From Isosphaera sp. (GTDB lineage: Bacteria; Planctomycetota; Planctomycetia; Gemmatales; Gemmataceae), in NCBI GenBank assembly GCA_013822345.1, contig PNKH01000079.1, forward strand, positions 1 to 37,596: a stretch of DNA of 37,596 nucleotides, written 5' to 3'. The notes beneath the pieces were generated by a model. It did no database searches. It was not told where the DNA came from and worked only from the letters and a program-made list of their open reading frames with translations. A program made the translations under genes and the position numbers. Positions 837 to 33,292 of the stretch are shown one piece after another. How positions within the stretch are numbered: position 1 is the first letter of the stretch; each line of letters begins with the position of its first letter.

Positions 837-3284
837 TCACCGGTTGAACTGGAACTCGCGGCTGTTCGCCAGCACCCACAGCAGGTCCTGTAGCCCCTCC
901 CGCACGCCCGGGGCCGACTTCACCCACCCCTCGGCCTTCTTCGCCTCGTCGGCGGTCGGGGGCCGCGACCACGTCGCCAGGTACAACTCCTCGACCGCCG
1001 CCGGCAGAGCCGCCTTCGCGGCGACCAGCTTCTCCACCCGCCCGGCCTTGTCCGCGACCTTCCGGTTCAGCGTGTCGCCGTTCAGCAGGTGCATCGCCTG
1101 CGCGATGTTCGGGGCCGTCGTCCGCTCGCACTCGCACAGCACCTGCCGGGCCGGCCGGCCGAACGTGTCCATCAGGTACGACTTCACCTCGCTGTCCGGC
1201 AGCTGGATCGCCCGCGTCCCGAGCGGCAGCCCGAGGTACTTCTCCCGCGTCCCGGTGGCGGCGTCCACCGCGTCGGCCAACTGCTCGGCGGTCAGCCGGC
1301 GGACGGTCCGGCGCGTGAAGTGGGTGTTCGCCGCGTCCGCCCGGTTCCCGTCCGTCGCGTCCGCCGACAACTGGTACGCCCGGCTGGTGAAGATCGTCCG
1401 GAGCAGGTGCTTGAGGTCGAACTTCGCCTTGACGAAGTCGTCCGCGAGGGCGTCGAGCAGTTCCGGGTTGGTGGCCGGGTTGGTCGCCCGCATGTCGTCC
1501 AGCGGCTCGACCAGCCCGCGGCCCATCGTGTACCCCCAGAACCGGTTCGCCAGGTTCCGGGCGAACATCCGGTTCGTCGGCGCGGTCAGCCAGTCGGCCA
1601 GCTTCTTCCGCCGGTCGAACTCGTCGTCCCACGACACCCGCGGGTCGGCGTCCAGCGGCAGCGGCTTCACCACCGCCCGCTTCCGCGGGTGCGTCGCCTC
1701 CCCGGTCGCCCGCACGTACACCACCGTCTCCCGGCCGAACAGCCCGAACTCCTGGCTGTTCTTCGTCCCCATCCGGGCGAAGAACGCGCTCAGCCCGTAG
1801 TAGTCGTCCTGGCTCCACTTCTCGAACGGGTGGTGGTGGCACTTCGCGCACCCGACGCGGATGCCGAGGAACAGTTGGGCCGTCGTCTCCGCCCAGTCGT
1901 CGGCCGTCCGGCCGATCTGGAAGAAGTTCGCCGGCCCGTCCAGGAACGTGCTCCCCTCGGCGGTCACCACGTCGCGGACGAACTGGTCGACCGGCACCCC
2001 GTCGCGGACCTGGCCGCGGACCCAGTTGTGGAAGCTCCACATCCCCTTCTCTTGCAGGGCGGTCCGGTTGATCCGCAGCAGGTCACCCCACTTCAGCGCC
2101 CACCAGTCGGTGAACTCGCCGCGGTCGAGGACGGCGTCGACCGCCTTCGCCCGCTTCTTCGGGTCGGCGTCCTTCAGGAACGCCCGCACCTCGTCGGGGG
2201 TCGGGAGGGTGCCGATCGCGTCGAGGTACAGCCGGCGGAGGAACTCGTCGTCGTCGCACAGCGGGGACGGCGTCAGCCCGAGGTCGACCCACTTCGCCCG
2301 CAGTTTCTCGTCGACGAAGTTGTTCGCGGGGAAGTCGGGGAACTTTTCGACCCGGGCGAACGGCAGGGTCACCTGCGACACCACCGCCTGGCCGCCGAAC
2401 CGGACCATGACGTGCGTCTCGCCGGCCGCCTTCGCGGTCACCACCCCGGCCGGGGTCACCGCCGCGACGGCCTCGTTCAGTGCGTCGAACTGGGCGGTCG
2501 CGGACACGTCCTCGCGTCGCCCGTCGGACCACTCGGCGGTCACCGCCAGGTGCTGCCGCTCGCCGGGCCGCATCACCCGGGCTGCCGGGAACACCTCCAG
2601 CTTCGTGACGAACGGGTCCTTCGCGGTCGGGGCCGGGGCGCCGTCCTCGAGCCACTGCCGCATCCGCGTGTAGTCGCGGCCGCCGAGCTTCAGCTTCTCG
2701 CCGCCGCCGTGCTCCATGACGAGCGCCGGCTTCGCCAGCAGGATGCTCCGCTCCGGGTCGCTGACGACCACCCGCCGGCCCTCGTTGCTGCCGACGATCT
2801 GGGCGTGGTCGAACGCCGGGTCGAACCCGAACAGGGACAGCCGGAACCCGCCGCGGCCGAGGGACGCCCCGTGGCACCCGCCGCCGTTGCACCCGGCCTT
2901 CGTCAGGATCGGCACCACCTCCCGGGTGAAGCTCACCGGCACGTCGGCGGTCGCCTTCTCGACGGTCACCGGCACCACCGTCCGCCCGCCGGCCGCGTCG
3001 ACCGTGACCGTCGTGTTCCCGTCCCCGACCGGGCGGACCGTCCCCTTGTCCGCGGACGCCACGTCCCGGTCGCCGGTGGTGAACCTGGCGGTCGGGGTGA
3101 GGTCGAAGGTGCGGCCGTCGGCCCAGACGCCGAGGACGACGAGCCGCTGCTCGTCTCGCGGGCCGGTGAACGTCAGCGACCGAGGGTAGACGACGACATC
3201 CTTCGGGGTGCCGGGCGGGGCGTCGGCGGCCGGGGCACCGGTGGCGGACAGGACGGCGGCGAGTGCCAGGAGGCGGGAGGGCAT
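837..3284 (-). CDS. Secreted DUF1549/DUF1553 protein with Ig-like domains
   Basis: This 815-residue exported protein belongs to a planctomycete-rich family of unknown biochemical role, often thought to bind or degrade extracellular polymers. Seen: a signal peptide (residues 1-20, ending TGAPAADA), a bacterial Ig-like region at about 30-110, then CNGGGCHG at 132-139, a second Ig-like region at about 225-305, the DUF1549 core with CAKCHHHPF at 479-487, and the DUF1553 part with a NRFWGYTMGRGLVEP motif and a REFQFNR end. The first cysteine pair is spaced CX4CH rather than the usual haem CX2CH; the second is CX2CH. It lacks the DUF1501 partner that usually sits beside such genes, having the GDPD gene downstream instead. 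A promoter-like site lies at 3372-3400. Family assignment is strong; function is unknown. Confidence 0.92.
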   Translation of the reverse strand: MPSRLLALAAVLSATGAPAADAPPGTPKDVVVYPRSLTFTGPRDEQRLVVLGVWADGRTFDLTPTARFTTGDRDVASADKGTVRPVGDGNTTVTVDAAGGRTVVPVTVEKATADVPVSFTREVVPILTKAGCNGGGCHGASLGRGGFRLSLFGFDPAFDHAQIVGSNEGRRVVVSDPERSILLAKPALVMEHGGGEKLKLGGRDYTRMRQWLEDGAPAPTAKDPFVTKLEVFPAARVMRPGERQHLAVTAEWSDGRREDVSATAQFDALNEAVAAVTPAGVVTAKAAGETHVMVRFGGQAVVSQVTLPFARVEKFPDFPANNFVDEKLRAKWVDLGLTPSPLCDDDEFLRRLYLDAIGTLPTPDEVRAFLKDADPKKRAKAVDAVLDRGEFTDWWALKWGDLLRINRTALQEKGMWSFHNWVRGQVRDGVPVDQFVRDVVTAEGSTFLDGPANFFQIGRTADDWAETTAQLFLGIRVGCAKCHHHPFEKWSQDDYYGLSAFFARMGTKNSQEFGLFGRETVVYVRATGEATHPRKRAVVKPLPLDADPRVSWDDEFDRRKKLADWLTAPTNRMFARNLANRFWGYTMGRGLVEPLDDMRATNPATNPELLDALADDFVKAKFDLKHLLRTIFTSRAYQLSADATDGNRADAANTHFTRRTVRRLTAEQLADAVDAATGTREKYLGLPLGTRAIQLPDSEVKSYLMDTFGRPARQVLCECERTTAPNIAQAMHLLNGDTLNRKVADKAGRVEKLVAAKAALPAAVEELYLATWSRPPTADEAKKAEGWVKSAPGVREGLQDLLWVLANSREFQFNR

Positions 3285-9180: not shown

Positions 9181-10683
9181 TCACTTCTTCTTCGGCTCCG
9201 TCTTCGGCTCGTCCTTCTTCGGCTCCGCGTCCGGCGGCAGCGCGGCCTTCACCAGAGCCCCGCTCGTCCCGTTGTACACCCGCAGCACCCCGTCCTCGCA
9301 CCCGCTCGCCACCACCGCCCCGTCCGGGCTCGCCGACACCGCGTACACGAAGTCCGGCGCCCCGGGGAACTGCCGCACGTTCCCGCCGTTGTCCGCGTTC
9401 CACATCCGCACCGTCGCGTCCCCGCTCGCGGTCAGGAACTGCGGCGTCTTCCCCACGAAGAACAGGTTCGTCACCTGCTTCTGGTGGCCCTGCATGTCCC
9501 GCAGCTTCTCCCCCTTCTCGTAGTCCCACACCTTCACGAAGTTGTCCGCCCCGCACGACGCGATCTTCTTCCCGTCCGGCGTCCAACCGACTCCCATCAC
9601 GTGGTGCGTGTGCCCCTCGAAGCTCTTCACGAACTTCGCCGCCTTCCCCGCCTCCGCCGACAGCTCCCACACCTTCACGAACTTGTCCGCCCCGCACGTC
9701 GCCAGCAGCTTCCCGTCCGGGCTGAACGCCAGGCCGAACACCGTGTCCGAGTGCCCGCTCTTCACCTCCGAGAACGGCTTCCCGTCGGCGGTGAAGACCC
9801 GCACCTCCCCGTCCTCCGTCGGCGCCCCGCCGCCGGTCCCGAGGTACTTCCCGTCGGCCGAGTACGCGACCGCCGTCACCTTGTCCGCGAACCCGCCGAC
9901 CCGGGCCCTCGGCTCGCCCTTCTCGAAGTCCCACAGGGTCAGCTCCTGGAAGCTCCCGGAGGCGAGCGTCTTGCCGTCCGGGCTGAACGCCAGCGACTCG
10001 ACCAGCGACACGTGGGCCGCCTTCGCCGCCTTCCCGTCCGGCGTCTTCAGCTGCGGGTCGAGCAGGGTCCGGGCGAACACCCAGTCCTTCTTCTCCGGGC
10101 CGCCCTTCTTGTCCGCCGGCTCCGTCTTCGCCTCGAACACGTGGATCTGGTTGCCGCGGCTCGCCGCCACCGTCTTCCCGTCCGGGGCGACGGCCACCGC
10201 CCGCACCGGCTTGACCAGCGCCGGCGGGAGGTTGACGACGACCTTCTCCTTCACCCGCACGGTGGTCGGGGCCTTCGCCCCCTCGTCGATCCACAGCTTG
10301 ACCAGGCTCAGCTCCCGCGACGTGAGCGGCTCCTCGGTCTTCGGCGGCATCATCGGCTTCACCTGCCGGGCGCACGACAGGAACAGGAAGCTGTCGCCCG
10401 ACTTCCCCGGGACGACCACCTTCGCCCCGCGCTTCGCCCCGCCCTTCATCACCTTCTCGTAGGTCGACATGTCGTACTTGCCGTTGTCCGCGGCCACGTT
10501 CCCGGTGTGGCAGACGAAGCACTTCTTCTCGAAGATCGGGGCGATGTCGGCCCCGTACTCGACCGGGGCCGACCGCTTCAGGTCGACCGTCGGGATCGGC
10601 GGGAACTCGTCCTTCTTCGGCTCCTGGGCGGTCAGGGCGTGGGCCGCGAGGGCGGCCGCGGCGAGTGCGATGAACCGGGGCAT
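9181..10683 (-). CDS. Secreted cytochrome c / WD40 beta-propeller protein
   Basis: This 500-residue protein has a signal peptide (ending near LAAHALTAQ), then a planctomycete-type cytochrome domain with the haem site CFVCH at 55-59 and a likely distal Met in VKPMMPPKTEEPL, then about seven WD40 repeats. The repeats are marked by SPDGKTLASGSFQELTLWD, SPDGKLLATCGADKFVKVW, TPDGKKIASCGADNFVKVWD, FLTASGDATVRMW and SPDGAVVASGCEDGVLRVY. Seven repeats would close a propeller. The tail is charged (DEPKTEPKKK). It lies 97 nt downstream of the PPC-domain gene on the same strand, with a 62-bp palindrome between, so the two are probably co-expressed. A surface redox or binding role is inferred; no substrate can be named. 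Confidence 0.92.
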   Translation of the reverse strand: MPRFIALAAAALAAHALTAQEPKKDEFPPIPTVDLKRSAPVEYGADIAPIFEKKCFVCHTGNVAADNGKYDMSTYEKVMKGGAKRGAKVVVPGKSGDSFLFLSCARQVKPMMPPKTEEPLTSRELSLVKLWIDEGAKAPTTVRVKEKVVVNLPPALVKPVRAVAVAPDGKTVAASRGNQIHVFEAKTEPADKKGGPEKKDWVFARTLLDPQLKTPDGKAAKAAHVSLVESLAFSPDGKTLASGSFQELTLWDFEKGEPRARVGGFADKVTAVAYSADGKYLGTGGGAPTEDGEVRVFTADGKPFSEVKSGHSDTVFGLAFSPDGKLLATCGADKFVKVWELSAEAGKAAKFVKSFEGHTHHVMGVGWTPDGKKIASCGADNFVKVWDYEKGEKLRDMQGHQKQVTNLFFVGKTPQFLTASGDATVRMWNADNGGNVRQFPGAPDFVYAVSASPDGAVVASGCEDGVLRVYNGTSGALVKAALPPDAEPKKDEPKTEPKKK

Positions 10684-10710: not shown

Positions 10711-10772
10711 GGCGAACCGCGACCGTCAGGGAGCGGGTGACGTCACCCGCTCCCTGACGGTCGCGGTTCGCC
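10711..10772. repeat. Family B perfect 62-bp palindrome, no loop
   Basis: Two 31-base arms meet at 10741/10742 in the centre TGACGTCA with no mismatch. On the minus strand the element begins 8 nt after the stop of the PPC gene and ends 27 nt before the next start. It matches the palindrome at 26872-26933 except at three arm positions, each with the complementary change in the other arm. No T-tract follows. Confidence 0.93.
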
Positions 10773-10780
10773 CGGGTCGG

Positions 10781-13450
10781 TCACTTCGCCACGGTGAAGG
10801 TCACCTTGGCCTCGTGGGTCACGGGGTGCTTGTCGGCGTACTTCGCGGTCAGGGTCACGGTCGCGTTCGTCACCGCCCCGGGCTTGGCGTCGTCGGCCAC
10901 CTTCACCAGCAGCTTCGCCTCGTCCTTGCCCGCCGGGATCGTCACCTCCTCGGCGGTCACCCCGGTGACGCCCATCGGCGGGGCGAACTTCACCTTGAAC
11001 TCCCCGGCGAAGTCGTACTGCCGCTCGACCTTCACCACCACCTCGGCGGTCGCCCCGAGCTTCGCCGTGTTGTTCGGCATCGGGCTCACGGTGACCTTGG
11101 CGACGGCGGACGGGACGACGAAGAACGCGACCGGGTCGGCGAACGCCTCGGCCGGGACGTTCCCGCCCTTGGCCATCGCCCCGCCGCCGGCCGGCCGGGC
11201 GTACGGCACCTGGGCGACGCCCTTGACCGTGACCGCGTACGGCCCCGGGGCGGCGGTCGCCTTCACGTCGAAGTTCACCACCGCCTCCGGCTTGTCCTTG
11301 GTCGGCTGGGCCGGGATCTGGACCGTGACCGGGCTGTTCTGCTGGTTCTGGGCGAGCGGCTCGGCCGTGAGGACGACGGCCTGCTTGTCCCCGACCGCCC
11401 ACGCCACCTTCACCGGGACGCTGAACTTGTCGCCCTGCTTGACGACCAGCGGGGCCGGCAGCTTCTCGTCCTTCATGTTCACCTTCACCACCGCGCTCGC
11501 GGTGTCCGCGGCGAGGGTGTAGATCGCCTTCTCGCCGCGGACCGCGAGGACGAACCCGTGGTCCAACCGGGCGACCACCGGGGCGGCGTTCTGCTGGGTG
11601 AGGAGGCCCCAGGTGACCGACGCCGACCTGACTTCTCGGGCCAGCGGCTTCCCGTCCGACCCGGTCCCGACCGCCTTCAGGGTGAACGGCCCGACCGCCG
11701 GCGCCGCCCCGCCGGCGGCGGTCAGCACCAGCACGCCCCACCGCGCCCCCGACCCGATCGTCAGCGGCTTCGCGGTCACCCCGGCCGGCAGCCCCTCGGC
11801 GGTGACCGCCACCGGGCCGGCGAACCCGTCGACCCGGTGGACGTACACGTCGTAGGCGAGGGTGCCGCCCTGCCACGCCGTCGCCCCGGTCTGGAAGTGC
11901 CGGCAGTACGGCATGGCGACCGCCCGGAAGTCCGGCCGGGGCGGGGCGACCCGGAGCCGGTACGCGGTCCGCGGCCCGCTCACCACGTTCGCCTCCCGGC
12001 ACCCGACCAGTACCAGGTACTGGCCGTCCTCCGGGGCGGTGAACCGGTACGGGGCGGGGTCGGCGGACCGGCTGTAGAACCCGAACGGGTGCAGACTGTC
12101 GTTGTCGTCGTCCTGTTCGCCGGACAGGTCGCGCTTCGGGTCCTTGCCGTCGCGGACCGAGACGAAGAAGTCGGCCGGGGTGCCGCCGCGCTCGGCGGTC
12201 AGCTCGACGACGAACACCTCGCCCTTCTTGGCGGTGAACCGGTACCAGTCGGTGTCGCCGCGGCGGGCGAGGAACCCGGCCACCTCGCACGGGGCGGGGA
12301 TGTCTTCGGGGGCGGCCGCGGTCGTCCCGCCGGCGTTCTTCTTCACCACCGGCTTGGCCCGGGCGAAGTAGATCGGCACCGGGTTCGACACCCCGCCGGG
12401 GCCCTTCAGCGTGAACTCGAACCCGTCCTGCAGCCCGGTGACCGGGTCGGCCCGGTGCCGGAGGGCCAGGCGGGTGGCGGCGGCCGCGTCTGCCGGCGGG
12501 GTGACGGTGACGGCCAGCTTCTCCAGCGGGAAGCCGTCGACCGTGAACCCGTCGGCGGGTTGGCCGCCGGGGAGGTTCCGGCCGTACAGCGTGACCGGGG
12601 TCGGCTTCCCCGGCTCGACCGCCGGCGGGAACACGGCGTCGATCCACGGGGCGGCGGAGACGGTGAGCCGGTAGACGTAGTCCGGGCCGCCGCCGAGGTA
12701 CGCGAACTGGAACAGCCGGACGAGGTAGTCGCCGTCGGCCGGGAGGGTCACGTCGGCGACCGCGTCGGCGTCGCGGTAGTTGCGGTTGACCGCCAGCTTC
12801 CGCCCGGCGGCGTCGAACACCTCGACCATCGGGGTGGCCCGGCTGTCGACCGAGGTGGCTTGGCACGACACCACGACGCGCTGCCCCTTCTTTCCGGCGA
12901 ACACCGTGTAATCCACGTCGGTCGAGGTGGCGAGGACGCCGTTGACGGTGGTGCCGACCGCGACCCGCTGGGCTTCGGGCACGTCGTTGTTCGGCTCCCG
13001 CTCGGACACCTCGTCCCGGTTCCCGACGACGAACGCCCGCGGGTTGCTGACCCCGAACTTGCCGACGAACCGGACGTCGTAGGTGCCGGGCGGCACGTCG
13101 GCGGCGACGGCGACCTTGAAGGTGTGCGGGCCGGTCGGGTTCGCCTTCGGCGGGGGGGCGTCCTTCTTCTTCGGGTCGGGCTCCGGCAGCTTCGGGGCGG
13201 CGAACGTGGCGGTGATGCCGGGGTGCGAGAAGACGAGCTTCTCCGGCTCGTCGAGGTCGGTCCCGGTGACCGACACCTGGGTGTCGCCGCCGAAGGTGAA
13301 CCCGAGGGCGCGGACGGTCTCGGCCGGGCCGGCCTTGGCCCCGGGCGGGAAGACGAACGTGACGCGCGGGTTCGGCAGCCCGGGCGGGGGCTGTGCGGCG
13401 GCGGTGCCGCAGGCCGCGAGCACGAGAAGACCGAGCACGGGCCGGCACAT
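10781..13450 (-). CDS. Large secreted PPC-domain protein (possible lipoprotein)
   Basis: This 889-residue exported protein starts MCRPVLGLLVLAACGTAAAQ, which reads either as a signal peptide cleaved after AAAQ or as a lipoprotein signal with lipobox LAAC. I start here because residues encoded further upstream are arginine-rich and non-hydrophobic. Seen: a VGNRDEVSEREPNNDVPEAQ segment and a following DVDYTVFAGKKGQRV block, the hallmark of bacterial pre-peptidase C-terminal (PPC) domains. A second copy (REGDTDWYRFTAKKGEV-like, beginning GFLARRGDTDWYRF) follows, then several beta-rich Ig-like modules. No protease catalytic domain is visible. Such proteins are abundant in planctomycetes next to DUF1549 and WD40 genes. 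It is first of a two-gene minus-strand set with the cytochrome/WD40 gene, behind a promoter-like site at 13543-13571. Confidence 0.88.
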   Translation of the reverse strand: MCRPVLGLLVLAACGTAAAQPPPGLPNPRVTFVFPPGAKAGPAETVRALGFTFGGDTQVSVTGTDLDEPEKLVFSHPGITATFAAPKLPEPDPKKKDAPPPKANPTGPHTFKVAVAADVPPGTYDVRFVGKFGVSNPRAFVVGNRDEVSEREPNNDVPEAQRVAVGTTVNGVLATSTDVDYTVFAGKKGQRVVVSCQATSVDSRATPMVEVFDAAGRKLAVNRNYRDADAVADVTLPADGDYLVRLFQFAYLGGGPDYVYRLTVSAAPWIDAVFPPAVEPGKPTPVTLYGRNLPGGQPADGFTVDGFPLEKLAVTVTPPADAAAATRLALRHRADPVTGLQDGFEFTLKGPGGVSNPVPIYFARAKPVVKKNAGGTTAAAPEDIPAPCEVAGFLARRGDTDWYRFTAKKGEVFVVELTAERGGTPADFFVSVRDGKDPKRDLSGEQDDDNDSLHPFGFYSRSADPAPYRFTAPEDGQYLVLVGCREANVVSGPRTAYRLRVAPPRPDFRAVAMPYCRHFQTGATAWQGGTLAYDVYVHRVDGFAGPVAVTAEGLPAGVTAKPLTIGSGARWGVLVLTAAGGAAPAVGPFTLKAVGTGSDGKPLAREVRSASVTWGLLTQQNAAPVVARLDHGFVLAVRGEKAIYTLAADTASAVVKVNMKDEKLPAPLVVKQGDKFSVPVKVAWAVGDKQAVVLTAEPLAQNQQNSPVTVQIPAQPTKDKPEAVVNFDVKATAAPGPYAVTVKGVAQVPYARPAGGGAMAKGGNVPAEAFADPVAFFVVPSAVAKVTVSPMPNNTAKLGATAEVVVKVERQYDFAGEFKVKFAPPMGVTGVTAEEVTIPAGKDEAKLLVKVADDAKPGAVTNATVTLTAKYADKHPVTHEAKVTFTVAK

Positions 13451-13542
13451 GGGGAGGTCTCCAGGCGAGCGAGGGGCGTCAGCCCCCTGAGCGGTTCGGC
13501 GGGAGTGAGGACGCACGGAGTGCGGGCAGGCGGGTAGGTGAA

Positions 13543-13820: not shown

Positions 13821-15956
13821 ATGCTCTCCCGCCGCGAACTCCTCGCCGCGTCCGCCGCTTCGGTGGTGCCGCTCGGCCTCCCGGCCCTCGCCGCCGACGA
13901 CCCCGACCCGACCCGCGTCTTCACCGGCGACCGGAAGCCGACCGACATCCGGCTCGGCCCGCCGAAGACGCTGAACGATTACTTCCCGTTCTTCGTGCCG
14001 AAGACGAAGGAGGCGTGGGAGGCCAGGCGGACGCAACTCCGCGAGCAGCTCCTCGTCGCCACCGGGCTGTGGCCGACGCCCGAGAAGACGCCGCTGAACG
14101 CCGTCGTCCACGGGAAGATCGGGCGCGACGGGTACACGATCGAGAAGGTGTTCTTCGCCAGCACGCCGGGCCACTACGTGACCGGGAATCTGTACCGGCC
14201 GGCGAACCCCGACCGTAAGGGAGGGGGTGACGCCAAGCGCCCCGGGGTGCTGTTCGCCCACGGGCACTGGGCAAACGGCCGGTTCCACGACGCCGGGGAG
14301 AAGGCGGCGGAGGCGAGCGTGAAGGCCGGAGGCGAGCCCGACCTCGACCGCGGCCGGTACTTCATGCAGGCGATCCCGGTCACGCTCGCCCGGCTCGGGT
14401 TCGTCGTCTTCCAGTACGACATGATCGGGTACGCGGACAGCACCACGATCCCGCACCGGGAGGGCTTCCGGGACGCGGCGGCGGAACTGCGGCTGCAGAG
14501 CCAGATGGGGCTGCAGACGTGGAACAGCGTCCGCGCCCTGGACTTCCTCGCCGGCCTGCCGGACGTGGACCCGAAGCGGCTCGGGATGACCGGGGCGAGC
14601 GGCGGCGGCACCCAGACGTTCATGCTCGCGGCGATTGACGACCGGTTGGCGGCGGCGTTCCCGGCGGTGATGGTGAGCACCGGGATGCAGGGCGGGTGCG
14701 TGTGCGAGAACTGTTCGCTCTTGCGGGTGAACACCGGGAACGTCGAGATCGCCGGGCTGTTCGCCCCGAAGCCGCTGGCGTTCTCCGCGGCGGACGACTG
14801 GACGAGGGAGTTCCTGACGAAGGGTTACCCGGAACTGCAGGCCCTCTACGAGCTGTACGGGGCCGGGGACCAGGTGGCGGCGAAGGCGTGGCTGGAGTAC
14901 AAGCACCAGTACAACGTCCACGCCCGCCAGTTCATGTACGCCTGGTTCCAGAAGCACCTCGCCGGCAAGGCCGTGGAGGTGAAGGAAGCCGCGTTCAAGC
15001 CGACCCCGCCGAAGGAGCTGAGCGTCTTCGACGCCGAGCACCCGCGGCCGAAGGACGAGCTGGGCGCGGAGCAGCTCCGCGAGGCGATGTCGAAAGCGAG
15101 CGACGGGCAGATCGAGAAGCTGACCCCGAAGGACGCCGCCGGCCTGAAGGAGTTCCGGCGGGTGGTCGGTACGGCGCTGCGGGCGATGCTGAACGACCGG
15201 CTGCCGGGCGAGCCCGGCGTCCGGATCCTGCCGCGGAACAACCGGGTGGAGGACTACACCGGGCTGCTGTCCCGGCACGGCCGGGACGGGACGGATGTCC
15301 CGTCGCTGTCGCTGTGGGCGAAGGGGTCGAACAACATCCCGGTGATCTGGGTCCACCCGCGCGGGAAGGCGAGCCTCGTCGCGGACGGCAAGGTGACCCC
15401 GGCCGCCAAGGCGCTCCTGGACGCCGGCTACCTGGTCTGCGCCCCGGACGTGTTGGGGGTGGGCGAACTCGCCTTCCCGAAGGCCCACCCGGTCGACAAG
15501 GGGTTCGCCGGGTTCACCTACGGGTACAACCGCTCGCTGCTCGCCAACCGGGTCCACGACGTGCTGACCGTGCTGGCCGACCGCCGGAGCATCGGCGTTC
15601 AGGGGAAAACTTGCCGCCTCGTCGGGTGGGGTGAGATGGGGGTGGTCGCCGTCCTCGCGGCGGCGCTGGCCGGCGACGCCGTGTCGAAGACGGCCGCCGA
15701 CCTGAACCAGTTCCGGTTCGAGAACCTGAAGGACGCGGCCGACCCGATGATGCTGCCGGGGGCGGTGAAGTACGGCGGGCTGCCGGCGTTCCTGGCCCTG
15801 TGCGCCCCCGGCGAGGTGCTCGCCCACAACCACAAGGGGACCGGCAGCGGGAGACTCGCCAAGGCCGCCTACGACGCCGCCGGCGCCGCCGACAAGCTCA
15901 CCCGGTCCGAGGCCAGGCTCGACGACCTGAAGGTGGTCGAGTGGCTGGTGAAGTGA
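13821..15956 (+). CDS. Tat-type secreted alpha/beta hydrolase (acetylxylan-esterase-like)
   Basis: This 711-residue protein starts MLSRRELLAASAAS, a twin-arginine-like signal, after a GAAGGAG ribosome site. Seen: an alpha/beta hydrolase core with VLFAHGHW (oxyanion region), the nucleophile elbow GASGGG with Ser260, VCENCSLL, and a GLFAPKPL segment typical of large planctomycete acetylxylan-esterase-like proteins. A second hydrolase-like half follows from about residue 500 (IPVIWVHPRGKAS, LVCAPDVLGVGEL) but lacks an evident G-x-S-x-G nucleophile (it has VGWGEMG). So the protein is probably a catalytic half fused to a degenerate half. Residues about 127-137 (ANPDRKGGGDA) are encoded by an inserted repeat arm. 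Substrate is inferred as esterified polysaccharide; uncertain. Confidence 0.87.
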   Translation: MLSRRELLAASAASVVPLGLPALAADDPDPTRVFTGDRKPTDIRLGPPKTLNDYFPFFVPKTKEAWEARRTQLREQLLVATGLWPTPEKTPLNAVVHGKIGRDGYTIEKVFFASTPGHYVTGNLYRPANPDRKGGGDAKRPGVLFAHGHWANGRFHDAGEKAAEASVKAGGEPDLDRGRYFMQAIPVTLARLGFVVFQYDMIGYADSTTIPHREGFRDAAAELRLQSQMGLQTWNSVRALDFLAGLPDVDPKRLGMTGASGGGTQTFMLAAIDDRLAAAFPAVMVSTGMQGGCVCENCSLLRVNTGNVEIAGLFAPKPLAFSAADDWTREFLTKGYPELQALYELYGAGDQVAAKAWLEYKHQYNVHARQFMYAWFQKHLAGKAVEVKEAAFKPTPPKELSVFDAEHPRPKDELGAEQLREAMSKASDGQIEKLTPKDAAGLKEFRRVVGTALRAMLNDRLPGEPGVRILPRNNRVEDYTGLLSRHGRDGTDVPSLSLWAKGSNNIPVIWVHPRGKASLVADGKVTPAAKALLDAGYLVCAPDVLGVGELAFPKAHPVDKGFAGFTYGYNRSLLANRVHDVLTVLADRRSIGVQGKTCRLVGWGEMGVVAVLAAALAGDAVSKTAADLNQFRFENLKDAADPMMLPGAVKYGGLPAFLALCAPGEVLAHNHKGTGSGRLAKAAYDAAGAADKLTRSEARLDDLKVVEWLVK
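14201..14231 (+). repeat. Family B half-element inside a coding sequence
   Basis: 31 bases match one arm of the palindrome at 26872-26933 at 30 positions (one A for G). Only one arm is present. It is read in frame in the hydrolase gene as about ten extra residues (ANPDRKGGGD) in the loop between GNLYRP and RPGVLFAHGHW. Confidence 0.8.
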
Positions 15957-16216: not shown

Positions 16217-17278
16217 ATGTCCCGCTACGCCCTGATCGCCGTCGCGGTCGTGCTCCTCGTCTGGGGTCGCACCGCGTTCTACGCCGTCGACCACGCCGAG
16301 TTCGCGTACGTCACCCGGTTCGGCGAGCTGGTCGCCCTGCGCGACGGGGCCACCGACGCCGGCCTCCACCTCAAGCTCCCGTGGCCGATCGACGCCGTCC
16401 AGACGATCGACCGGCGGGTGCAGTCGGTCGATCTGCCGGCGGTCGAGGTGCTGACCCGCGACCGGGCCCGCGACTCGACCCTGCAGCAGTCCGTCGGCAG
16501 TACCCTGACGGTCGACGCGACCGTCACCTGGCGCGTCCCGGACGCGGACGCCGCCGACCGGTTCTTCCGCACCGTCCGCACCCCGGACCAGGCGAACCGC
16601 ATCCTCACCCCGCAGGTCAACGGCCGGCTGTCGGCGGTGGTCAGCGCCGTCCCGATCGAGTCGCTGATCGACGTGGCGGACGTGCAGTCGGCGGCGGCCG
16701 GCGTGGTCGGGGCGGCCGCCGTGATGTCCGCCGATTCCGTCTTCCGGGCCGCCGACTACCGCCAGATCGACGACCGGGTGGAGCGGGTGCGGCGGCGGCT
16801 GACCGGCGAAGACGGGTTGCACGGCGGGCTGCCGTCGGAGGCCGAGAACCTGCGGACCCGGGCGCTGGCCGATTACGGGATCGAGGTGATCGACATCCGG
16901 GTCCGGCGGTTCAGCTACCCCGTGGCGGTGCGGGAGAAGATCGCCGAGTTGATCCGGAGCGAGCGGGAGAAGAAGGCCGCCGACTACGAGAGCGAGGGCC
17001 GGAGGCGGGCCGCCGAGATCACCGCCGACGCCGACCGCCTGGCCCGGGTGACCGAGGCCGACGCCCGCGCCCGGAAGACCGAGGTCGAGGGCCAGGCGAA
17101 CGCCGACGCCGCCCGCACCCGCGCCGCCGCGTACGCCCAGGACCGCGAGTTCTACCTGTTCCTGGAGGGCCTGCGGGCGTTCCAGGGGATCCTGTCCGGC
17201 ACCCGCGACGTGCTGCTCCTGAGCACCAAGCACCCGCTGCTGAAGCCGCTCGCCGGCCCGCCGGCGCCGAAGCCGTAG
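16217..17278 (+). CDS. hflC: HflC-like SPFH/band 7 membrane protease modulator
   Basis: This 353-residue protein has an N-terminal membrane anchor (residues 4-24) followed by a band 7/SPFH domain (EFAYVTRFGELVALRDGATD, GLHLKLPWPIDAVQTIDRRV). A charged coiled coil at about 240-305 (REKKAADYESEGRRRAAEIT) comes next, then the HflC-type end (DREFYLFLEGLRAFQGIL). In E. coli, HflC with HflK forms a large cage around FtsH and modulates its proteolysis; the same role is inferred here. The ATG at 16217 is chosen because the upstream in-frame GTG lies inside the repeat cluster. No clear ribosome site is seen. The TAG stop is the first triplet after G in a family C palindrome. It precedes hflK, the reverse of the E. 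coli order. Confidence 0.9.
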   Translation: MSRYALIAVAVVLLVWGRTAFYAVDHAEFAYVTRFGELVALRDGATDAGLHLKLPWPIDAVQTIDRRVQSVDLPAVEVLTRDRARDSTLQQSVGSTLTVDATVTWRVPDADAADRFFRTVRTPDQANRILTPQVNGRLSAVVSAVPIESLIDVADVQSAAAGVVGAAAVMSADSVFRAADYRQIDDRVERVRRRLTGEDGLHGGLPSEAENLRTRALADYGIEVIDIRVRRFSYPVAVREKIAELIRSEREKKAADYESEGRRRAAEITADADRLARVTEADARARKTEVEGQANADAARTRAAAYAQDREFYLFLEGLRAFQGILSGTRDVLLLSTKHPLLKPLAGPPAPKP

Positions 17279-17371
17279 GGTGGGCCGAAGCCGGCGCTTC
17301 GCCGGCGAGTCCCACCCCGACGCGAAGCAGGTGGGACTCGCCGGCGAAGCGCCGGCTTCGGCCCACCCTAC
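17275..17371. repeat. Family C element: perfect 42-bp arms, GTAG ends
   Basis: The arms 17275-17316 and 17330-17371 are exact complements around a 13-nt loop. Each arm read inward begins GTAGGGTGGGCCGAAGC and holds its own hairpin (GCCGGC-GCTTC-GCCGGC), so the whole looks like two REP-type units head to head (a BIME). REP sequences bound by TnpA-REP (RAYT) transposases characteristically carry GTAG at the 5' foot of the hairpin. Here the TAG of the left end is the hflC stop, and the right end lies 10 nt before the hflK ATG. Confidence 0.92.
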
Positions 17372-18333: not shown

Positions 18334-19038
18334 TCACTGGGGGAGGCCGGGCGGCCGCCCCGCGGGGACCAGGGCGGCCCGGGCGGCGGCCCGCTCGGCG
18401 GCGGCCGCCCGGCGGTTGCCGGCCCGGTCGTGGGCGTCGGCCAGCAGCGCCGGCGGCCGCGGGTCGCCCGGCCGCAGCCCCTTCGCCTCGCCCAGCGCCT
18501 CGACCGCCTTGCACAGCATCTCCTCGCAGAACCCGTCGTCCCGGTCCGCCTTGCCGTCCTCCCCCTCGACCAGCAGCAGTAACCCGGCCCCGCGGTGGAA
18601 CGCCTCCGCGAACCGGTCGTCGGCCCGCCGGGCGATCCCCATCAGCTGCGTGTGGGCGTGGACCAGGCGGCCCCGGGTCGGGCCGGCGGCGCGGGCGGCG
18701 TCGGCGGCGAACCGCTCGAAGTGGACCCTGGCCGCGTCGTCCCGGCCGGCCTTCACGAGGAGGTCGGCGAGCTGCGCCCGGAACAGGAGGTGGTCGGGGA
18801 ACGCCCGGACGTGGGCTTCGAGGTGGGTCGCGGCGGCGGGGTCGTCGCCGCGCTCGAGGGCGTCGGCGGCGAGGGCGAGGTGGTCGGGGTCTGGCGAGCC
18901 GGGAGCGTGAGCGACCGGAGGGGTCGCCGCCTCCGGTCGCTCACGCTCCCGGCTCGCCGCTTCCGGCGCCGGCGGGTTCCGCAGCGACTCGCAGCCGGCG
19001 AGCGCGACCAGGCCGAGCGTGAGCCAGCGGAACCGCAT
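18334..19038 (-). CDS. TPR-type lipoprotein with an inserted palindrome
   Basis: This 234-residue protein has a lipoprotein signal (MRFRWLTLGLVALAGC, lipobox LAGC, lipidated Cys16), a linker, then helical tetratricopeptide-like repeats from about residue 52 (LALAADALERGDDPAAATHL, FRAQLADLLVKAGRDDAARV, LLADAHDRAGNRRAAAAERA). TPR lipoproteins act as scaffolds at membranes; no partner can be named. Residues 27-49 are encoded by a complete family A palindrome (18893-18958) that keeps the frame and sits in the linker between lipid anchor and first repeat, where an insertion should be tolerated. It lies downstream of the sigma-factor start on the other side of a 118-nt gap and is convergent with hflK. 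Confidence 0.83.
   Translation of the reverse strand: MRFRWLTLGLVALAGCESLRNPPAPEAASRERERPEAATPPVAHAPGSPDPDHLALAADALERGDDPAAATHLEAHVRAFPDHLLFRAQLADLLVKAGRDDAARVHFERFAADAARAAGPTRGRLVHAHTQLMGIARRADDRFAEAFHRGAGLLLLVEGEDGKADRDDGFCEEMLCKAVEALGEAKGLRPGDPRPPALLADAHDRAGNRRAAAAERAAARAALVPAGRPPGLPQ
18893..18958. repeat. Family A palindrome inside a coding sequence
   Basis: Perfect 29-bp arms at 18893-18921 and 18930-18958, identical to the arms of the intergenic element at 770-834, with an 8-nt loop. The 66-base span is a multiple of three, and the loop length differs from the intergenic copy (5 nt). It is translated on the minus strand as AASRERERPEAATPPVAHAP and three further residues. Confidence 0.92.
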
Positions 19039-20571: not shown

Positions 20572-20632
20572 GACGAGCCCGCGGCGCGAGCAAGGGCTTC
20601 GCTTCCGCCCTTGCTCGCGCCGCGGGCTCGTC
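20572..20632. repeat. Perfect 25-bp-arm palindrome at the rpsA stop (family G)
   Basis: Arms 20572-20596 and 20608-20632 are exact complements around the loop CTTCGCTTCCG. On the minus strand it begins 8 nt after the rpsA stop. No other copy of this sequence is seen in the window. Confidence 0.88.
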
Positions 20633-25502: not shown

Positions 25503-25569
25503 CGGGAGGGCGAGGCTCCCGCCGAGCCGCGTGGGTGGTCGGCGGCCCGGCGGGAGCCTCGCCCTCCCG
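25503..25569. repeat. Family D palindrome, perfect 22-bp arms
   Basis: Arms 25503-25524 and 25548-25569 (CGGGAGGGCGAGGCTCCCGC and two more bases) are exact complements. The element fills the space between the convergent stops of ligA (8 nt away) and the beta-propeller gene (16 nt away). A single arm of the same family lies at the right edge of the window. Confidence 0.88.
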
Positions 25570-25585: not shown

Positions 25586-26848
25586 TCACTTCGCGTCCGC
25601 CGGGTCGATCCGCAGCAGCGTGAACGGGTAGATGACGGTGCCGTACAGGGTGCCATCCTTCGCCTGCGTCAGCGCCATGTGGGCGTGCAGCGGGGTGACG
25701 GTGCCGTCCGGCAGCTTGTGGAACCCGTGCGACCACGGCTTCGGCTTGCCGTCCTTGCCGGGTCCGAAGTCGAACCAGTCCGGGTTCTTCACCGCCAGCA
25801 CCCCGTGGTCGCGGGCCTTCTTCGCCTCCGGGTCGTAGCTCAACAGGTGGTGAAGGAAGCCCGTCCCGAACTTCGTGTCGTTGTTCACCCGCCCCAGGGC
25901 GTACACCTTCCCGTCGTGCCCAACGATCAGCGACCCGCGGGAGTCGAACCCCTTCCCGTCGATCAGCCTCCCGAGGTCGGCGACCGGCAGCTTCGCCCCG
26001 CCGGCGGTGAGGTCGATGCGGAACAGCGTCGGGTCGGACATGCGGATCAGGTACGCCGACTTCGCGTCGGCGGTCAGCGCCCAGCAGGCGGGACCGAGCT
26101 TGTCGTCGGCCGCCCCGACCGACTTCCCGTCGGACGCGAGGGTCAGGTACTCGAGCTTGCCGGTGGCCGGGTCGAACCGGGCGACGCGGAAGTCCCGGGT
26201 GACGACCACTGCCCGGCCTTTGCTGTCGATGAGCGTCTGGGCGTAGGGGGTGAGCCGCAACTCCGGGTCCGGCTCGCGGAAAGCCTTCGACTTCAGGTCG
26301 AGGACCACCCAGTGGTGATCCTCGCACGTCACGACGTACGCCAGCCCGGCCTTCTCGTCCGCCGTCACATCGTTCACGCCCTCGCCGCGGAACGGCATCC
26401 CGAGGTTCTCGGCCTTGCCGGTGGCCGGGTCGTAGACGACGACGTACCCGCCGGGGTAGGCGGCGGTGTCGTCCTTGCCGCGGCGGTAACCCTGCTTGCT
26501 GCCGACGTAGATCTTGCCGCTCGGGGCGACGAAGTTCCGGGTGTGGATCTTCGACTGCGCCGCGTAGGTCGGCTTCTCGGGCGTCTTGAGCCCGCAGACC
26601 TGGTTCACGTCCACGACGATCCGCTGCTTGCCGGTCTTCGGGTCGAACTCGACGAGGTAGGCGTTGAGGCCGTAGGCGGCGGTGCCGACGTAGACCTTGC
26701 CGTCGTGCCCCTCGCAGAGCGAGAAGTACCCGGACTCGTCGGTGTGGGTGCCGGGCAGGACGTGGTGGGCGGTCGCCTTGACGTACGGGAACGGGGCCTT
26801 CGGCGGGTCCGCCGCGGGGGCCAGGGCGAGGAGGACGGAGAGGAGCAT
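25586..26848 (-). CDS. Secreted beta-propeller-like protein
   Basis: This 420-residue protein begins with a short signal peptide (MLLSVLLALAPAADPP). The rest is a series of about 45-50-residue beta repeats built on GKVYVGTAAYGLNAYLVEFD, GKIYVGSKQGYRRG, YVVVYDPATGKAENLGMP, VARFDPATGKLEYLTL and GKVYALGRVNNDTKFG. This pattern is typical of six- or seven-bladed propellers of the SMP-30/NHL or lactonase type. No catalytic residues can be assigned. It follows the giant glycosidase-like gene by 92 nt, separated by a 62-bp palindrome, the same layout as the PPC and WD40 genes at 9181-13450. The pair may be co-transcribed. Confidence 0.85.
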   Translation of the reverse strand: MLLSVLLALAPAADPPKAPFPYVKATAHHVLPGTHTDESGYFSLCEGHDGKVYVGTAAYGLNAYLVEFDPKTGKQRIVVDVNQVCGLKTPEKPTYAAQSKIHTRNFVAPSGKIYVGSKQGYRRGKDDTAAYPGGYVVVYDPATGKAENLGMPFRGEGVNDVTADEKAGLAYVVTCEDHHWVVLDLKSKAFREPDPELRLTPYAQTLIDSKGRAVVVTRDFRVARFDPATGKLEYLTLASDGKSVGAADDKLGPACWALTADAKSAYLIRMSDPTLFRIDLTAGGAKLPVADLGRLIDGKGFDSRGSLIVGHDGKVYALGRVNNDTKFGTGFLHHLLSYDPEAKKARDHGVLAVKNPDWFDFGPGKDGKPKPWSHGFHKLPDGTVTPLHAHMALTQAKDGTLYGTVIYPFTLLRIDPADAK

Positions 26849-26871: not shown

Positions 26872-26933
26872 GGCGAACCCCGACCGTGAGGGAGGGGGTG
26901 ACGTCACCCCCTCCCTCACGGTCGGGGTTCGCC
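26872..26933. repeat. Family B perfect 62-bp palindrome, no loop
   Basis: Two 31-base arms meet at 26902/26903 in TGACGTCA. On the minus strand it begins 7 nt after the stop of the 1076-residue gene and ends 23 nt before the next start. It differs from 10711-10772 at arm positions 9, 17 and 24, each with the matching change in the other arm. Confidence 0.93.
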
Positions 26934-26940
26934 CGGGGTG

Positions 26941-29900
26941 TCACCGGTCGATCAGGATCATGTCCGCGACATCGAGCTGCATCGTCAGGCGGATGCCCCC
27001 CTTCCCCTGCTCGAACTTCAACTCGCCGCGCTCGACGCTCCGCACCTTCGACGGGTTCTCCACCCCGCGGATCGTCACCGTCAGCGAGGTGACCGGGGCG
27101 CCGCTCCAGTTCACCAGCGGCACCGCCAGCTTCGCCGGCTTCCCGTCCTTCGCCGGCGTGTCGATGCACGTCGCCTCGACCAGCCCGTCGGTGCTGACCA
27201 CCGGCCGGGCGTCGGACGCGGCGCGGCCGAGGAAGTCGTCGACGAGGCGGGCGCGGAGGTGCGGGCTCATCCCGGTCGGGAGGAAGTGGGCGAAGCTCTC
27301 CGGGCTCGCCCCGCGGTCCACCGGCCGGACCGGCAGCGCCCCCTTCAGGTACGCCTGGCCCGGCAGGAACCCGAACAGCACCGCCCGGCCCTTCCCGTGC
27401 TCCTTCCGCACCACCGCCGGCGACCCGTCCTTGAACTTCCCGATCACCGTCCCGTCGCCCGCCGTCAGCGGCTGCTTCCAGGCGATGACCGGGATGTTGA
27501 ACACGTGGTTCGGCGACGGGTTCGGGGCCGGGTCCACCTTCGGCAGCCCGGCGAAGTTCCACTGCGCCGCGTCCATCGGCTCGTACCGCGGCAGGTCGTG
27601 CTTCGTCAGGAACGGCACGTTCTCCTTCAGCAGGTGCTTCGGCACCAGGTTCGGGTCGACGGTGATGGCGAGGCCGGTCGCGCCGTAGAGCTTCGCGGCC
27701 GCCGGGTTCTCCTTCTGGAACTCGTTGAGGAACCCGCCGCCGGCGAGGGCCACCACCGTCCCGCCCGCCTCACACCACTTCGTCAGGGCATCAATACACT
27801 TCGAGTGCACATACTGCTGGGTGACGTAGATGAGGGAGTAGTCCTTGGCCCGGCCCTCGATCACGTCGTCCTCCGAGAGGAAGTCGACCGGCACCTGGGC
27901 GTGCTTCAGGGCGTAGTAGATCGCCTTCCGCTCGTTGTTGTGCAGCGCAAGATTGAAATTGTTGACGCCGGTGACGAGTTCATCCACACTCGACAGCAGC
28001 AACCCGACCTTCGCCGGCCGCACCTTCCCGTCGAGCACGTAGTCCTCGAAGATCCCCACCTCGTGGGTGCAGCGGTGGATCATCCGCCACATCGGCAGGT
28101 CGTCGCTCTCGACGTAGTTCTCGGTGTACCCCACGGCCGACGGCGAGGCGCAGAAGTAGTTGAGGATCTTGGCCCCGTGCGCGACGGAGGCGTAGAAGCT
28201 CTGCCGGAACTCGCTCGGGATCTGGCCCGGGGAGTGCGGCATCACATACATGTGGATCGGCAGGTCGTCATACTTCGCCCCGGCCCGCAAGCCGCTGAGG
28301 AGGTAGCCGACCACCTGCGGGCTGAACTCGGCGATCTGCCACGCGTAATCCTCCGTCCACGGCATCGACATGGCCTTGATCTTGAACGGCCGGATGTAGT
28401 CGATCTCGGTGACGAGGAAGTTGGCGTGCGGGGAGTAGTTCGCCCCGGTGAGGACGCCCTTCGTCTTGTAGTACGCGGTGCCGGCGGCGTACTTCGCCCC
28501 GCCCTTCTCCTTCGCCGCGATCTGCGAGTAGTAGTACAGCGGGTGCTTCTTGTCCGTCGTGTACTTCACCTCGCCGTCGTACTTTGCCCCCCGCGCCTTG
28601 AGCCAGGCCGCGAACTCGTCGTCCTTCAGCGGTACGGCGGGCAAGTGAATCTCATCCCCGTAACTCACGATGGCGAGGTCGTCGAACCCGCCCTTCCGCC
28701 CGGCCTCCTGCTTCTTGATCCACTCCGGGTCCGGGTTCCCCCAGTGGGCGACCAACTCACGCTTCTTCCCGGCCGCGTTCACCATCGTGTTGTCGCCGAG
28801 CGCCAGCGCCAACTGCTTCGCCTCGGGGAACACGCCCAGCGCCCCGCCGAACCCGAGGAGGTTGTACACCGGCATCCGCTTCGGCACGCTCCCGACCTTC
28901 GGGAACTTCGCCACCTCGGCGTTCAGGAAGTCGAGGATCTCCTTCTGGGTGCGGATCGTCGGCAGCCAGTACCGCTTCTTCATCAGAGCCGCGAGTTCGG
29001 GGCCGGGGTTCGCACACCCGGGGATGTCGAAGCACGCCGGCGACAGGTTCGACGCCGGCCCCTTGACCGTGATGTCCTTCACCGCCTTGACGCCGCCTTT
29101 GCCGTCCGGCACGCCGAACTCCAGCCGCAGGTGCAGCGCGTCGGCCTTCGCCCTCGACAGCACCTTCGGGAACCACTGCGAGTGGTACAGCGAATCGACC
29201 GCGTTCCCGAGCGGCACCCACCCCGACGCTTCGCCCGGCTTGAGATACTGGTCGTCGGGGATCACCTTCGGCAGTGCGACGACCGGGGCGAGCGCCGCCG
29301 GCTTCACCTGAGTCGAGCGCGGCCCGGCGACCTGGTACTTCGTCGCGGTGGTGGACCGGCCGGACTTCAGCACGGTGGTCGTCGGCCAGTCGCGGACGTG
29401 GACGTAGTACGGCGAGTGCTGGCCCTGGTCGAACGGGGCGACGACCGGGACGACCGGGCCGGCCGCGTCCGCCGGGTTGGTGAACCGGACGAACAGGTCG
29501 CCGTCCTGAACCAGCCACCCGTCGTACTCCAGGTAATTGGTCTTCTTCTGGGCCTCTGCCCCGGCCGTGTCGTTGGTCAGGCAGATGACATCGACGTGCC
29601 GGCGGGCGGCGTTCTCGCGCTCCTTCCCGCCGTCCGTCTGCCCGCCGGCGATGAGCCGCAGTGTGGCGGGGCCGGCGGCCAACTTCACCGTCCCGGGGTT
29701 CTGCCACACGATGTTGTCGGTCCCGCTCCAACTGTACCGCTCCATCGGCACCCGCTTGTGCCCGTTCAGCCCCCAGATCTTCGGGTCGGTGAGCCGGCCG
29801 CACGGGAACGCCGCCACCACCTTGCCGCCCTGCTCGACCTCGACCGTGAACTCGACCGAGAACTGGAACGGCTGCTCGAACCGGGCGAGCAGGTCGTAGG

Positions 29901-30171
29901 TGTCGGCGGTGGGGATGTCGACCGCCAACTCGGCGACGGCCGGCTTGCCGTCGGCGGGCTGCTCGGGGGCGCCGAGGCAGCCCATCCGCGACAGGAAGGT
30001 GACGGCGAACGAGCCGGCGAAGTAGTTGTCGCGGTACGGCATCACCTTCCAGCCGGACTTCACGGTGAAGTCCTCGGCCTCGGCGAACAGGCGGACCGGG
30101 GTCTTGTCCTGGGCGGCCGCTGGCGGGGCAAGGGCGAGGACGGCGGCGAGGGCGAGAGAGGTGCGAGGCAT
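26941..30171 (-). CDS. Giant secreted glycoside-hydrolase-like protein
   Basis: This 1076-residue exported protein starts with a signal peptide (MPRTSLALAAVLALAPPAAA). Seen: an N-terminal beta-rich region (about 20-230) with carbohydrate-binding-like strands, a central TIM-barrel-like part (about 380-720) containing MPWTEDYAWQIAEFSPQVVG and YFCASPSAVGYTENY, and then a Rossmann-like segment. That segment (VGLLLSSVDELVTGVNNFNL, VPVDFLSEDDVIEGRAKDYS, EAGGTVVALAGGGFLNEF) resembles the beta-galactosidase trimerisation domain of family GH42. A beta-rich end follows. A sugar-cleaving role is inferred; I cannot assign the catalytic pair. I chose the ATG at the signal peptide over an in-frame ATG 48 nt upstream. 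A promoter candidate lies at 30208-30238. Confidence 0.85.
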   Translation of the reverse strand: MPRTSLALAAVLALAPPAAAQDKTPVRLFAEAEDFTVKSGWKVMPYRDNYFAGSFAVTFLSRMGCLGAPEQPADGKPAVAELAVDIPTADTYDLLARFEQPFQFSVEFTVEVEQGGKVVAAFPCGRLTDPKIWGLNGHKRVPMERYSWSGTDNIVWQNPGTVKLAAGPATLRLIAGGQTDGGKERENAARRHVDVICLTNDTAGAEAQKKTNYLEYDGWLVQDGDLFVRFTNPADAAGPVVPVVAPFDQGQHSPYYVHVRDWPTTTVLKSGRSTTATKYQVAGPRSTQVKPAALAPVVALPKVIPDDQYLKPGEASGWVPLGNAVDSLYHSQWFPKVLSRAKADALHLRLEFGVPDGKGGVKAVKDITVKGPASNLSPACFDIPGCANPGPELAALMKKRYWLPTIRTQKEILDFLNAEVAKFPKVGSVPKRMPVYNLLGFGGALGVFPEAKQLALALGDNTMVNAAGKKRELVAHWGNPDPEWIKKQEAGRKGGFDDLAIVSYGDEIHLPAVPLKDDEFAAWLKARGAKYDGEVKYTTDKKHPLYYYSQIAAKEKGGAKYAAGTAYYKTKGVLTGANYSPHANFLVTEIDYIRPFKIKAMSMPWTEDYAWQIAEFSPQVVGYLLSGLRAGAKYDDLPIHMYVMPHSPGQIPSEFRQSFYASVAHGAKILNYFCASPSAVGYTENYVESDDLPMWRMIHRCTHEVGIFEDYVLDGKVRPAKVGLLLSSVDELVTGVNNFNLALHNNERKAIYYALKHAQVPVDFLSEDDVIEGRAKDYSLIYVTQQYVHSKCIDALTKWCEAGGTVVALAGGGFLNEFQKENPAAAKLYGATGLAITVDPNLVPKHLLKENVPFLTKHDLPRYEPMDAAQWNFAGLPKVDPAPNPSPNHVFNIPVIAWKQPLTAGDGTVIGKFKDGSPAVVRKEHGKGRAVLFGFLPGQAYLKGALPVRPVDRGASPESFAHFLPTGMSPHLRARLVDDFLGRAASDARPVVSTDGLVEATCIDTPAKDGKPAKLAVPLVNWSGAPVTSLTVTIRGVENPSKVRSVERGELKFEQGKGGIRLTMQLDVADMILIDR

Positions 30172-30207
30172 TGCGGGTTCCGTGCGGGGCAGGCGGGCGG
30201 AACGGAA

Positions 30208-30238
30208 ATGGTAACCCAACGGCGGGGCGGGGGGTACA
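30208..30238 (-). promoter_or_regulatory. Candidate promoter of the giant GH-like gene
   Basis: Minus strand TGTACC (30238-30233), 19-nt spacer, TACCAT (30213-30208), then TTCC and CCCGCCTGC at 30197-30189. It matches the -10-side sequence and downstream block of 13543-13571 and 3372-3400. The -35 is weaker and its spacer longer. The leader would be about 30 nt. Confidence 0.42.
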
Positions 30239-33206: not shown

Positions 33207-33292
33207 CGTTTAGCCGCGACGCGGAGTCCGCGGAGCGGAGCGCGGGGGAGCCGCCGCGCTCCGCTCCGCGGACTCCGCGTCGCGGCTAAACG
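33207..33292. repeat. Palindrome with perfect 39-bp arms inside the DUF1549-DUF1501 set (family E)
   Basis: Arms 33207-33245 and 33254-33292 (CGTTTAGCCGCGACGCGGAG and onward) are exact complements around an 8-nt loop. It starts 12 nt after the DUF1549 stop and ends 37 nt before the DUF1501 start. As the two genes are almost certainly expressed together, a full stop of transcription here would be unexpected. Confidence 0.92.

Follow-up and report, generated by a model that had tools for sequence, protein, structure and literature searches.

The window analysed here (the whole stretch of DNA, 37,596 nucleotides) is contig 79 of a 7.47-Mb Gemmataceae genome. It contains two long palindromes of one repeat family, here called family B, each between two minus-strand genes. 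The features relevant to these elements and to the related repeats in the window are as follows.

770-834, no strand: homodimer of sister family A; the stop of 837-3284 precedes it by 2 nt
9181-10683, minus: WD40 propeller gene, next in the same direction after the first element
10711-10772, no strand: first element, perfect 62-bp palindrome, family B head-to-head homodimer (G9/C24, loop base C17)
10711-10739, plus: first element, unit 1, 29 nt (G + GCGA-tagged hairpin + GTG); intra-unit pair 10719-10734, loop base 10727
10744-10772, minus: first element, unit 2, 29 nt, inverted, identical to unit 1
10781-13516, minus: large gene with PPC domain, stop 8 nt from the first element
14202-14226, plus: single unpaired B2-like arm with loop GTAA, inside a called gene
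18893-18958, no strand: sister family A homodimer, within called gene 18334-19038 according to the gene calls
25586-26848, minus: next same-direction gene after the second element, no Pfam hit above cut-off
26872-26933, no strand: second element, perfect 62-bp palindrome, subfamily B2 homodimer (C9/G24, loop base G17)
26872-26900, plus: second element, unit 1; intra-unit pair 26880-26895, loop base 26888
26905-26933, minus: second element, unit 2
26941-30219, minus: gene with Glyco_hydro_42M as sole Pfam hit, stop 7 nt from the second element
36903-36963, no strand: homodimer of the related CCGAG type; the stop of 34919-36895 precedes it by 7 nt

The two family B elements share the centre TGACGTCA and differ at positions 9, 17 and 24 and at the mirror positions 39, 46 and 54; the differences are hence symmetric, as the initial annotation had stated. 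That annotation had also placed both elements 7-8 nt after a stop codon and before a propeller-type gene. The distance to the stop holds at both loci (8 nt at the first and 7 nt at the second). The propeller assignment holds for the first locus only, because the single Pfam match of 25586-26848 is to DUF5074 and lies below that family's cut-off. Translation of 26941-30219 from a later start gives the same sole Pfam hit. An Rfam scan of the window gave 0 matches at the gathering score and a tRNA scan gave nothing. Read in the direction of the genes, neither element has a T-run after its stem.

Near-perfect long palindromes of other families also lie at gene 3' ends in the window (17275-17371, 20572-20632, 25503-25569, 33207-33292, 34783-34842 and 36903-36963). 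Long near-perfect inverted pairs whose arms are tandem repeats or A+T-rich were seen at L067:1315, L083:10494, L057:17095 and L053:9916. They suggest that inverted pairing in the window's genome involves more than a single type of unit. At L207:353-446 and L213:3269-3360, a family B heterodimer directly adjoins an arm that belongs to a different family (GCGAGCGGGGGGCGTGAGCCCCCTG) and looks as though it had been inserted into or beside an older element.

The two elements belong to a large family of short paired hairpin repeats in Gemmataceae. A 26-nt arm pattern, searched with up to three mismatches, matches the genome 178 times on the forward and 177 times on the reverse strand (355 in total), with 0 + 0 matches for the reversed-pattern control. 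The window's genome was sampled as 60 stretches of 20 kb chosen blind to repeats, plus 20 that were partly targeted. Strong hairpins number 313 within 1.24 Mb, and the first 20 of 61 stretches contain 116 of them versus 0 in dinucleotide shuffles. A template made from three families (GCGA-N-CC-NN-GA-NN-GTNA-NN-GA-NN-GG) matches the window's genome 237 + 234 times, a density of about 1 arm per 16 kb. Outside this genome it is present in 14 of 18 further members of the genus, 7 of 18 further members of the family, 1 of 7 genomes at the level of the order and 0 of 15 at that of the class, and its reversed control has 0 matches across all 59 genomes. The exact arm was found in 9 stretches of the named genome collection, which come from Gemmataceae or Planctomycetia metagenome-assembled genomes (MAGs). 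The arms are arranged either head to head (HH, the form of both window elements) or tail to tail (TT), and the family B pairs analysed comprise 72 HH and 21 TT pairs with a variable spacer. Spacing between the 25-nt arms of HH pairs ranges from 9 to 47, and the TT spacer is 11 in 17 of the 21 pairs. The tag of family B arms is GCGA; most listed arms of one relative (G060, a CANLGS MAG) have GTGA.

The unit of this family is a 29-nt hairpin with a GCGA tag, a covarying stem that includes a G.A/A.G step, and a GTNA loop. Its outer edge was defined from the 72 HH pairs, its inner edge from 54 loops and its stem from covariation. The outer edge is a G in 143 of 144 cases, and the next bases outward are softer (67%, 84% and 69%). 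The inner edge is sharp, with GTG at 108, 107 and 107 of 108, followed by 66%, 64% and 70%. When the arm is numbered from its GG, positions 9 and 24 pair with each other in the hairpin that each arm forms by itself, and position 17 is the N of the GTNA loop. The three apparent changes between the window elements are therefore one stem-pair flip and one loop base, and since both elements are homodimers each change is shown doubled.

Pairing within the arm is supported by covariation. Among 17 distinct arms, chosen by hand from arm lists of several genomes, 96.1% of stem cells are paired versus 70.5% after shuffling, and pairing falls to 28-47% when the partner is slid. Cells with a double change number 24 versus 6.7 shuffled, and none of the 500 shuffles reached 24. 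In this set, two of five measures of covariation fail to beat the shuffles, namely the number of pairs with a double change (4 versus 3.1; 125 of 500 as high) and the number of further pair types (9 versus 7.4; 76 of 500 as high). Of 19 distinct template arms in a mechanically defined set, 17, 17 and 18 have Watson-Crick bases at three of the stem pairs, respectively, versus means of 9.0 to 9.5 and maxima of 17 in 2000 shuffles; the fourth pair is invariant. Because the template itself fixes the GCGA tag, the G.A steps and the GTNA loop, their invariance in this set is no evidence. The unit can fold on its own as a single strand.

The two units of a pair are strongly concordant. Most copies do not carry unpaired mismatches, the finding that would have made the two window elements fortuitous perfect copies: the arms are identical in 79 of 93 distinct family B pairs (63/72 HH, 16/21 TT), a sample that mixes sampling schemes and was partly ascertained via exact-arm lists. 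Random re-pairing gives a mean of 35.1 identical pairs and a maximum of 44 in 2000. In the repeat-blind stretches 26 of 30 pairs are identical (random mean 13.6, maximum 20 in 5000 re-pairings). Of the 42 pairs that contain a variant arm, 14 have arms that differ from each other. Relative to the most frequent arm, 56 deviations are symmetric and 18 are confined to one arm, and random re-pairing produces a mean of 6.1 symmetric deviations (maximum 17). The original argument that symmetric changes exceed what independent drift would leave is thus borne out. Its further step, that selection on the hairpin or arm-to-arm correction must be responsible, does not follow, because subfamilies copied as pairs could also explain the symmetry. 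In G060, where 100 of 128 arms were listed, the loop base is concordant in 25 of 25 listed HH pairs (12 A, 11 G, 2 C; re-pairing mean 10.5, maximum 19 in 5000), and 20 of these 25 pairs have fully identical arms. The loop base in this relative is A or G in 23 of the 25 listed HH pairs, and in the listed TT pairs it is only C (10/10).

Several variants define such subfamilies. A GTCC loop variant comprises 29 arms in 16 elements, of which 13 have both arms exact (6 HH, 7 TT) and 3 have a changed partner. A long-arm variant comprises 8 arms in 4 HH elements; loops are related among the three that were read, two of which are distinguished by a compensated base-pair change. Both variants had been candidates for private symmetric changes that would prove local correction, and both proved to be subfamilies when searched genome-wide. 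A zero-loop class, with the centre GTGACGTCAC or a close variant of it, occurs with arm types B, B2, a further B2 form and C, and includes one asymmetric intermediate (L235). In the window's genome a heterodimer at L237:551-609 consists of a C-like and a B2 arm around a 9-nt centre, GTGCGTCAC. Symmetric differences are thus inherited with the subfamilies, at least in part together with the loop. The B2 pair at L089:7902 has its centre GTGACGTCAC interrupted by about 37 nt, which contain a second small hairpin. Two pairs 2.5 kb apart (L120:16216 and L120:18691) share the same one-arm change and have different loop lengths, a sign that loops change faster than arms.

Unit boundaries, covariation within the unit, concordance within pairs, subfamilies, heterodimers in other genomes (described below) and the position after stop codons are established. 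The elements are probably REPIN-like mobile repeats whose units are copied as inverted pairs, and the symmetric changes between the window elements would then reflect homodimers of two subfamilies. The proposed model is as follows. Single-stranded hairpin units would be recognised one by one. The units would be propagated as inverted pairs, such that the pair is the copied object, by a putative enzyme acting on putatively mobile elements. Both units of each new homodimer would be written from one template unit. As pairs are inherited and copied as pairs, a subfamily variant would normally be present in both units. Because new subfamilies are themselves homodimers, some step must copy both units from a single template; local correction could be that step.

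Two observations count against plain pair copying. The loops of the main HH subfamily are nearly unrelated between copies and its arms are almost invariant, whereas plain copying of the whole pair should carry the loop too. Arm sites depart from the commonest arm in 131 of 4650 cases (2.8%), the 18 one-arm deviations amounting to 0.4%, and next to the inner edge of the unit bases deviate in 30-36% of sides. With variation in the unit so far below that of the inner flank, plain copying of whole pairs is insufficient. It is possible, though doubtful, that a unit-bounded system independent of known RAYTs writes the same 29-nt unit to the left and right of a spacer, one copy per strand, and can rewrite the two units of existing pairs jointly as the loop drifts. 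Such a system would leave near-invariant, jointly changing units around near-random loops and would place the same subfamily in both HH and TT pairs.

Local arm-to-arm correction is a doubtful explanation. Under it, a template switch by the replicating polymerase inside the palindrome would copy the sequence of one arm onto the other and make any mutation symmetric. Template switching is a known mechanism that creates and repairs perfect hairpins, according to the available portion of PMC8794818, and the elements resemble hairpins made in this way in their perfect stems and multi-base paired changes. The repeated, independent appearance of homodimer subfamilies needs some copying step, as do symmetric changes at a base that is unpaired within the arm (position 16 in template numbering). 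Correction by template switching predicts symmetry up to the loop, but left-right agreement at inner positions 4-6 is 81/162 versus 79.0 for re-paired sides (1837 of 5000 as high). Positions 4-6 were counted because positions 7-9 reach the centre of short loops; the latter were left out, except for 7-8 in loops of at least 17 nt. In the 41 loops of at least 17 nt, positions 4-8 agree in 88/205 cases versus 96.1 expected. A slight excess is present at position 4 alone, the first base past the unit (31/54 versus 25.5; 175 of 5000 re-pairings as high). In addition, a zero-loop element at L007:1501-1562 carries GTGGCGCCAC in place of GTGACGTCAC, so that its midpoint itself is changed symmetrically. 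The position-4 excess and this central change lean towards local correction.

A further difference from template-switch hairpins is the existence of heterodimers. In G059 (MAG JAIEQO), each of the 5 exact B arms found has an arm of a different type as its partner. The 14 listed HH pairs of this genome (33 of its 113 arms were listed) comprise 8 homodimers and 6 heterodimers, the latter differing at 3 to 5 arm positions. Intra-arm pairs are kept in 6 of 6 heterodimers and arm-arm pairs are not. As the search pattern left positions 8, 12, 16, 19 and 23 free, broken intra-arm pairs could have appeared. Enforced symmetry is contradicted by these heterodimers and by the chance-level agreement of the inner positions.

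The elements also have a characteristic position relative to genes. In gene-called stretches, 28 of 36 family B HH pairs are intergenic, 6 are inside called genes and 2 are at edges. A stop codon adjoins 27 HH pairs at a median of 9 nt (10-90% range 5-21) and only 5 TT pairs, at a median of 74 nt. Strong intergenic hairpins of any family in gene-called stretches (n = 249) have a median distance of 8 nt to the nearest stop, and in the window a stem scoring at least 25 lies within 16 nt downstream of 11 of the 24 called genes (9 distinct hairpins, two of them shared by convergent genes). Gaps of 60-600 nt contain a strong hairpin in 171/396 co-directional, 61/87 convergent and 17/110 divergent cases. 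Stretches of eight relatives show a similar bias at a looser score (42/122, 24/64 and 1/37 ends, respectively). Window genes share few neighbours with stretches of these 8 relatives, so comparison with them is of little use beyond the two loci. At the loci themselves, orthologs were read in 11 of 17 matching relatives for the first and 15 of 18 for the second, where one relative without an upstream match was dropped. Hairpins in the orthologous gaps, where present, are unrelated in sequence except for a few related short ones. A hairpin site conserved across species seemed strong by eye, but hairpins scoring at least 11 occur in 4/11 and 6/14 orthologs, respectively, which is not enriched over the base rate of 34-38% at gene ends as measured in 8 relatives rather than in all those compared. 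This indicates a general habit of 3'-end placement and not a conserved hairpin at the two loci.

Placement after stops, with its bias against divergent gaps, and the frequent presence of sequence-unrelated hairpins in orthologous gaps are what would be expected if selection on a long RNA hairpin (as a terminator or for protection of the mRNA 3' end) kept the arms complementary. This explanation is nonetheless unlikely. RNA selection predicts a surplus of G.T mismatches, whereas the 205 mRNA-strand mismatches in co-directional hairpins within 1.63 Mb comprise 43 G.T, 54 A.C and 108 others; there is no wobble excess in these hairpins and so no sign of selection at the RNA level. Heterodimers break the long stem, the ortholog rates are near the base rate, and neither element is followed by a T-run. 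The elements are like intrinsic terminators in being G+C-rich hairpins a few nt after a stop codon, and unlike them in having a 31-bp stem and no T-run. The same 205 mismatches include 36 G.G and 34 C.C versus 97 of the transition type, and G-to-C changes in the stems look frequent.

A candidate dyad site for a dimeric DNA-binding protein, which would itself keep the symmetry, is very unlikely. The near-invariance of the unit, also in TT pairs with their largely constant spacer of 11, would suit such a site, but the HH spacing of 9 to 47 would not, and subfamily changes paired to fit intra-arm stems are not predicted by double-strand binding. That the window elements are two chance perfect copies amid mostly imperfect ones can be dismissed, given 79 identical pairs of 93 and 0 hairpins in the shuffles of 20 stretches.

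Propagation as REPIN-like inverted pairs can be compared with known systems. REPINs are inverted REP pairs with diverse spacers in which compensatory changes are common, as described in the available portions of Bertels and Rainey 2011 (PMC3116915) and PMC8049555. As in the REPINs of the former, the present elements have two inverted, conserved units, a variable spacer with diverse loops, high copy number and an intergenic location. With REPs and REPINs they share a unit of 20-40 nt, high copy number, a mainly intergenic position, an imperfect stem-loop, inverted pairs and a variable spacer; they lack an unpaired GTAG or CGTC tag and an association with RAYT (Y1_Tnp). Unlike REPINs as presented in that portion of PMC3116915, family B has no GTAG-type tag and no template arms at the Y1_Tnp loci examined. 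Template arms were absent within 1.5 kb on each side of all 33 Y1_Tnp loci examined, out of 80 matches in the genus. Five of these loci are in the window's own genome, where the lack of arms would by itself mean little at about 1 arm per 16 kb. In addition, one arm-rich genome of the genus (G008, with 39 + 31 template arms) has no Y1_Tnp hit. No link to a RAYT was found at the loci examined. Loss of the hairpin nuclease SbcCD as the cause of long-palindrome persistence was rejected, as every one of the 19 genomes of the genus has an SbcD match that exceeds the cut-off. Neither an empty site nor a new insertion was observed; over its full length the first locus has a best match of 77%.

The available text of PMC3733652 describes tagged GTAG and CGTC stem-loops that form HH and TT homo- and heterodimers near gene 3' ends; the CGTC repeats lack flanking transposases and GTAG members are reported in the PVC superphylum. 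The present repeats likewise consist of small tagged stem-loops, arranged HH or TT as homo- or heterodimers near gene 3' ends, and, as with the CGTC repeats, no flanking transposase was found. They differ in the tag of family B (GCGA, or GTGA in most listed arms of G060), the GTNA loop and the tandem G.A stem. The word Gemmata is absent from that text. Enterobacterial REP/BIME elements are also inverted REP pairs after genes, but according to the same text their dimers are formed exclusively by elements with different loops, whereas homodimers predominate in the window's genome. In the mainly open-access literature on palindromic repeats, REP, REPIN and terminators in Gemmata, Gemmataceae and Planctomycetes, the family is undescribed among the matches listed.

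The elements appear to represent a new, GCGA-tagged class of REPIN-like repeats in Gemmataceae, with no RAYT found beside it. They raise a sharp question, namely why the units are far less variable (2.8%, or 0.4% for one-arm deviations) than the adjoining bases (about a third). As homodimers prevail in one genome and many heterodimers occur in a relative, the family offers a test system. More generally, symmetric changes in the two arms of a palindrome are not by themselves a sign of arm-to-arm repair or of selection on a hairpin; subfamilies of self-folding units propagated as pairs can also produce them.
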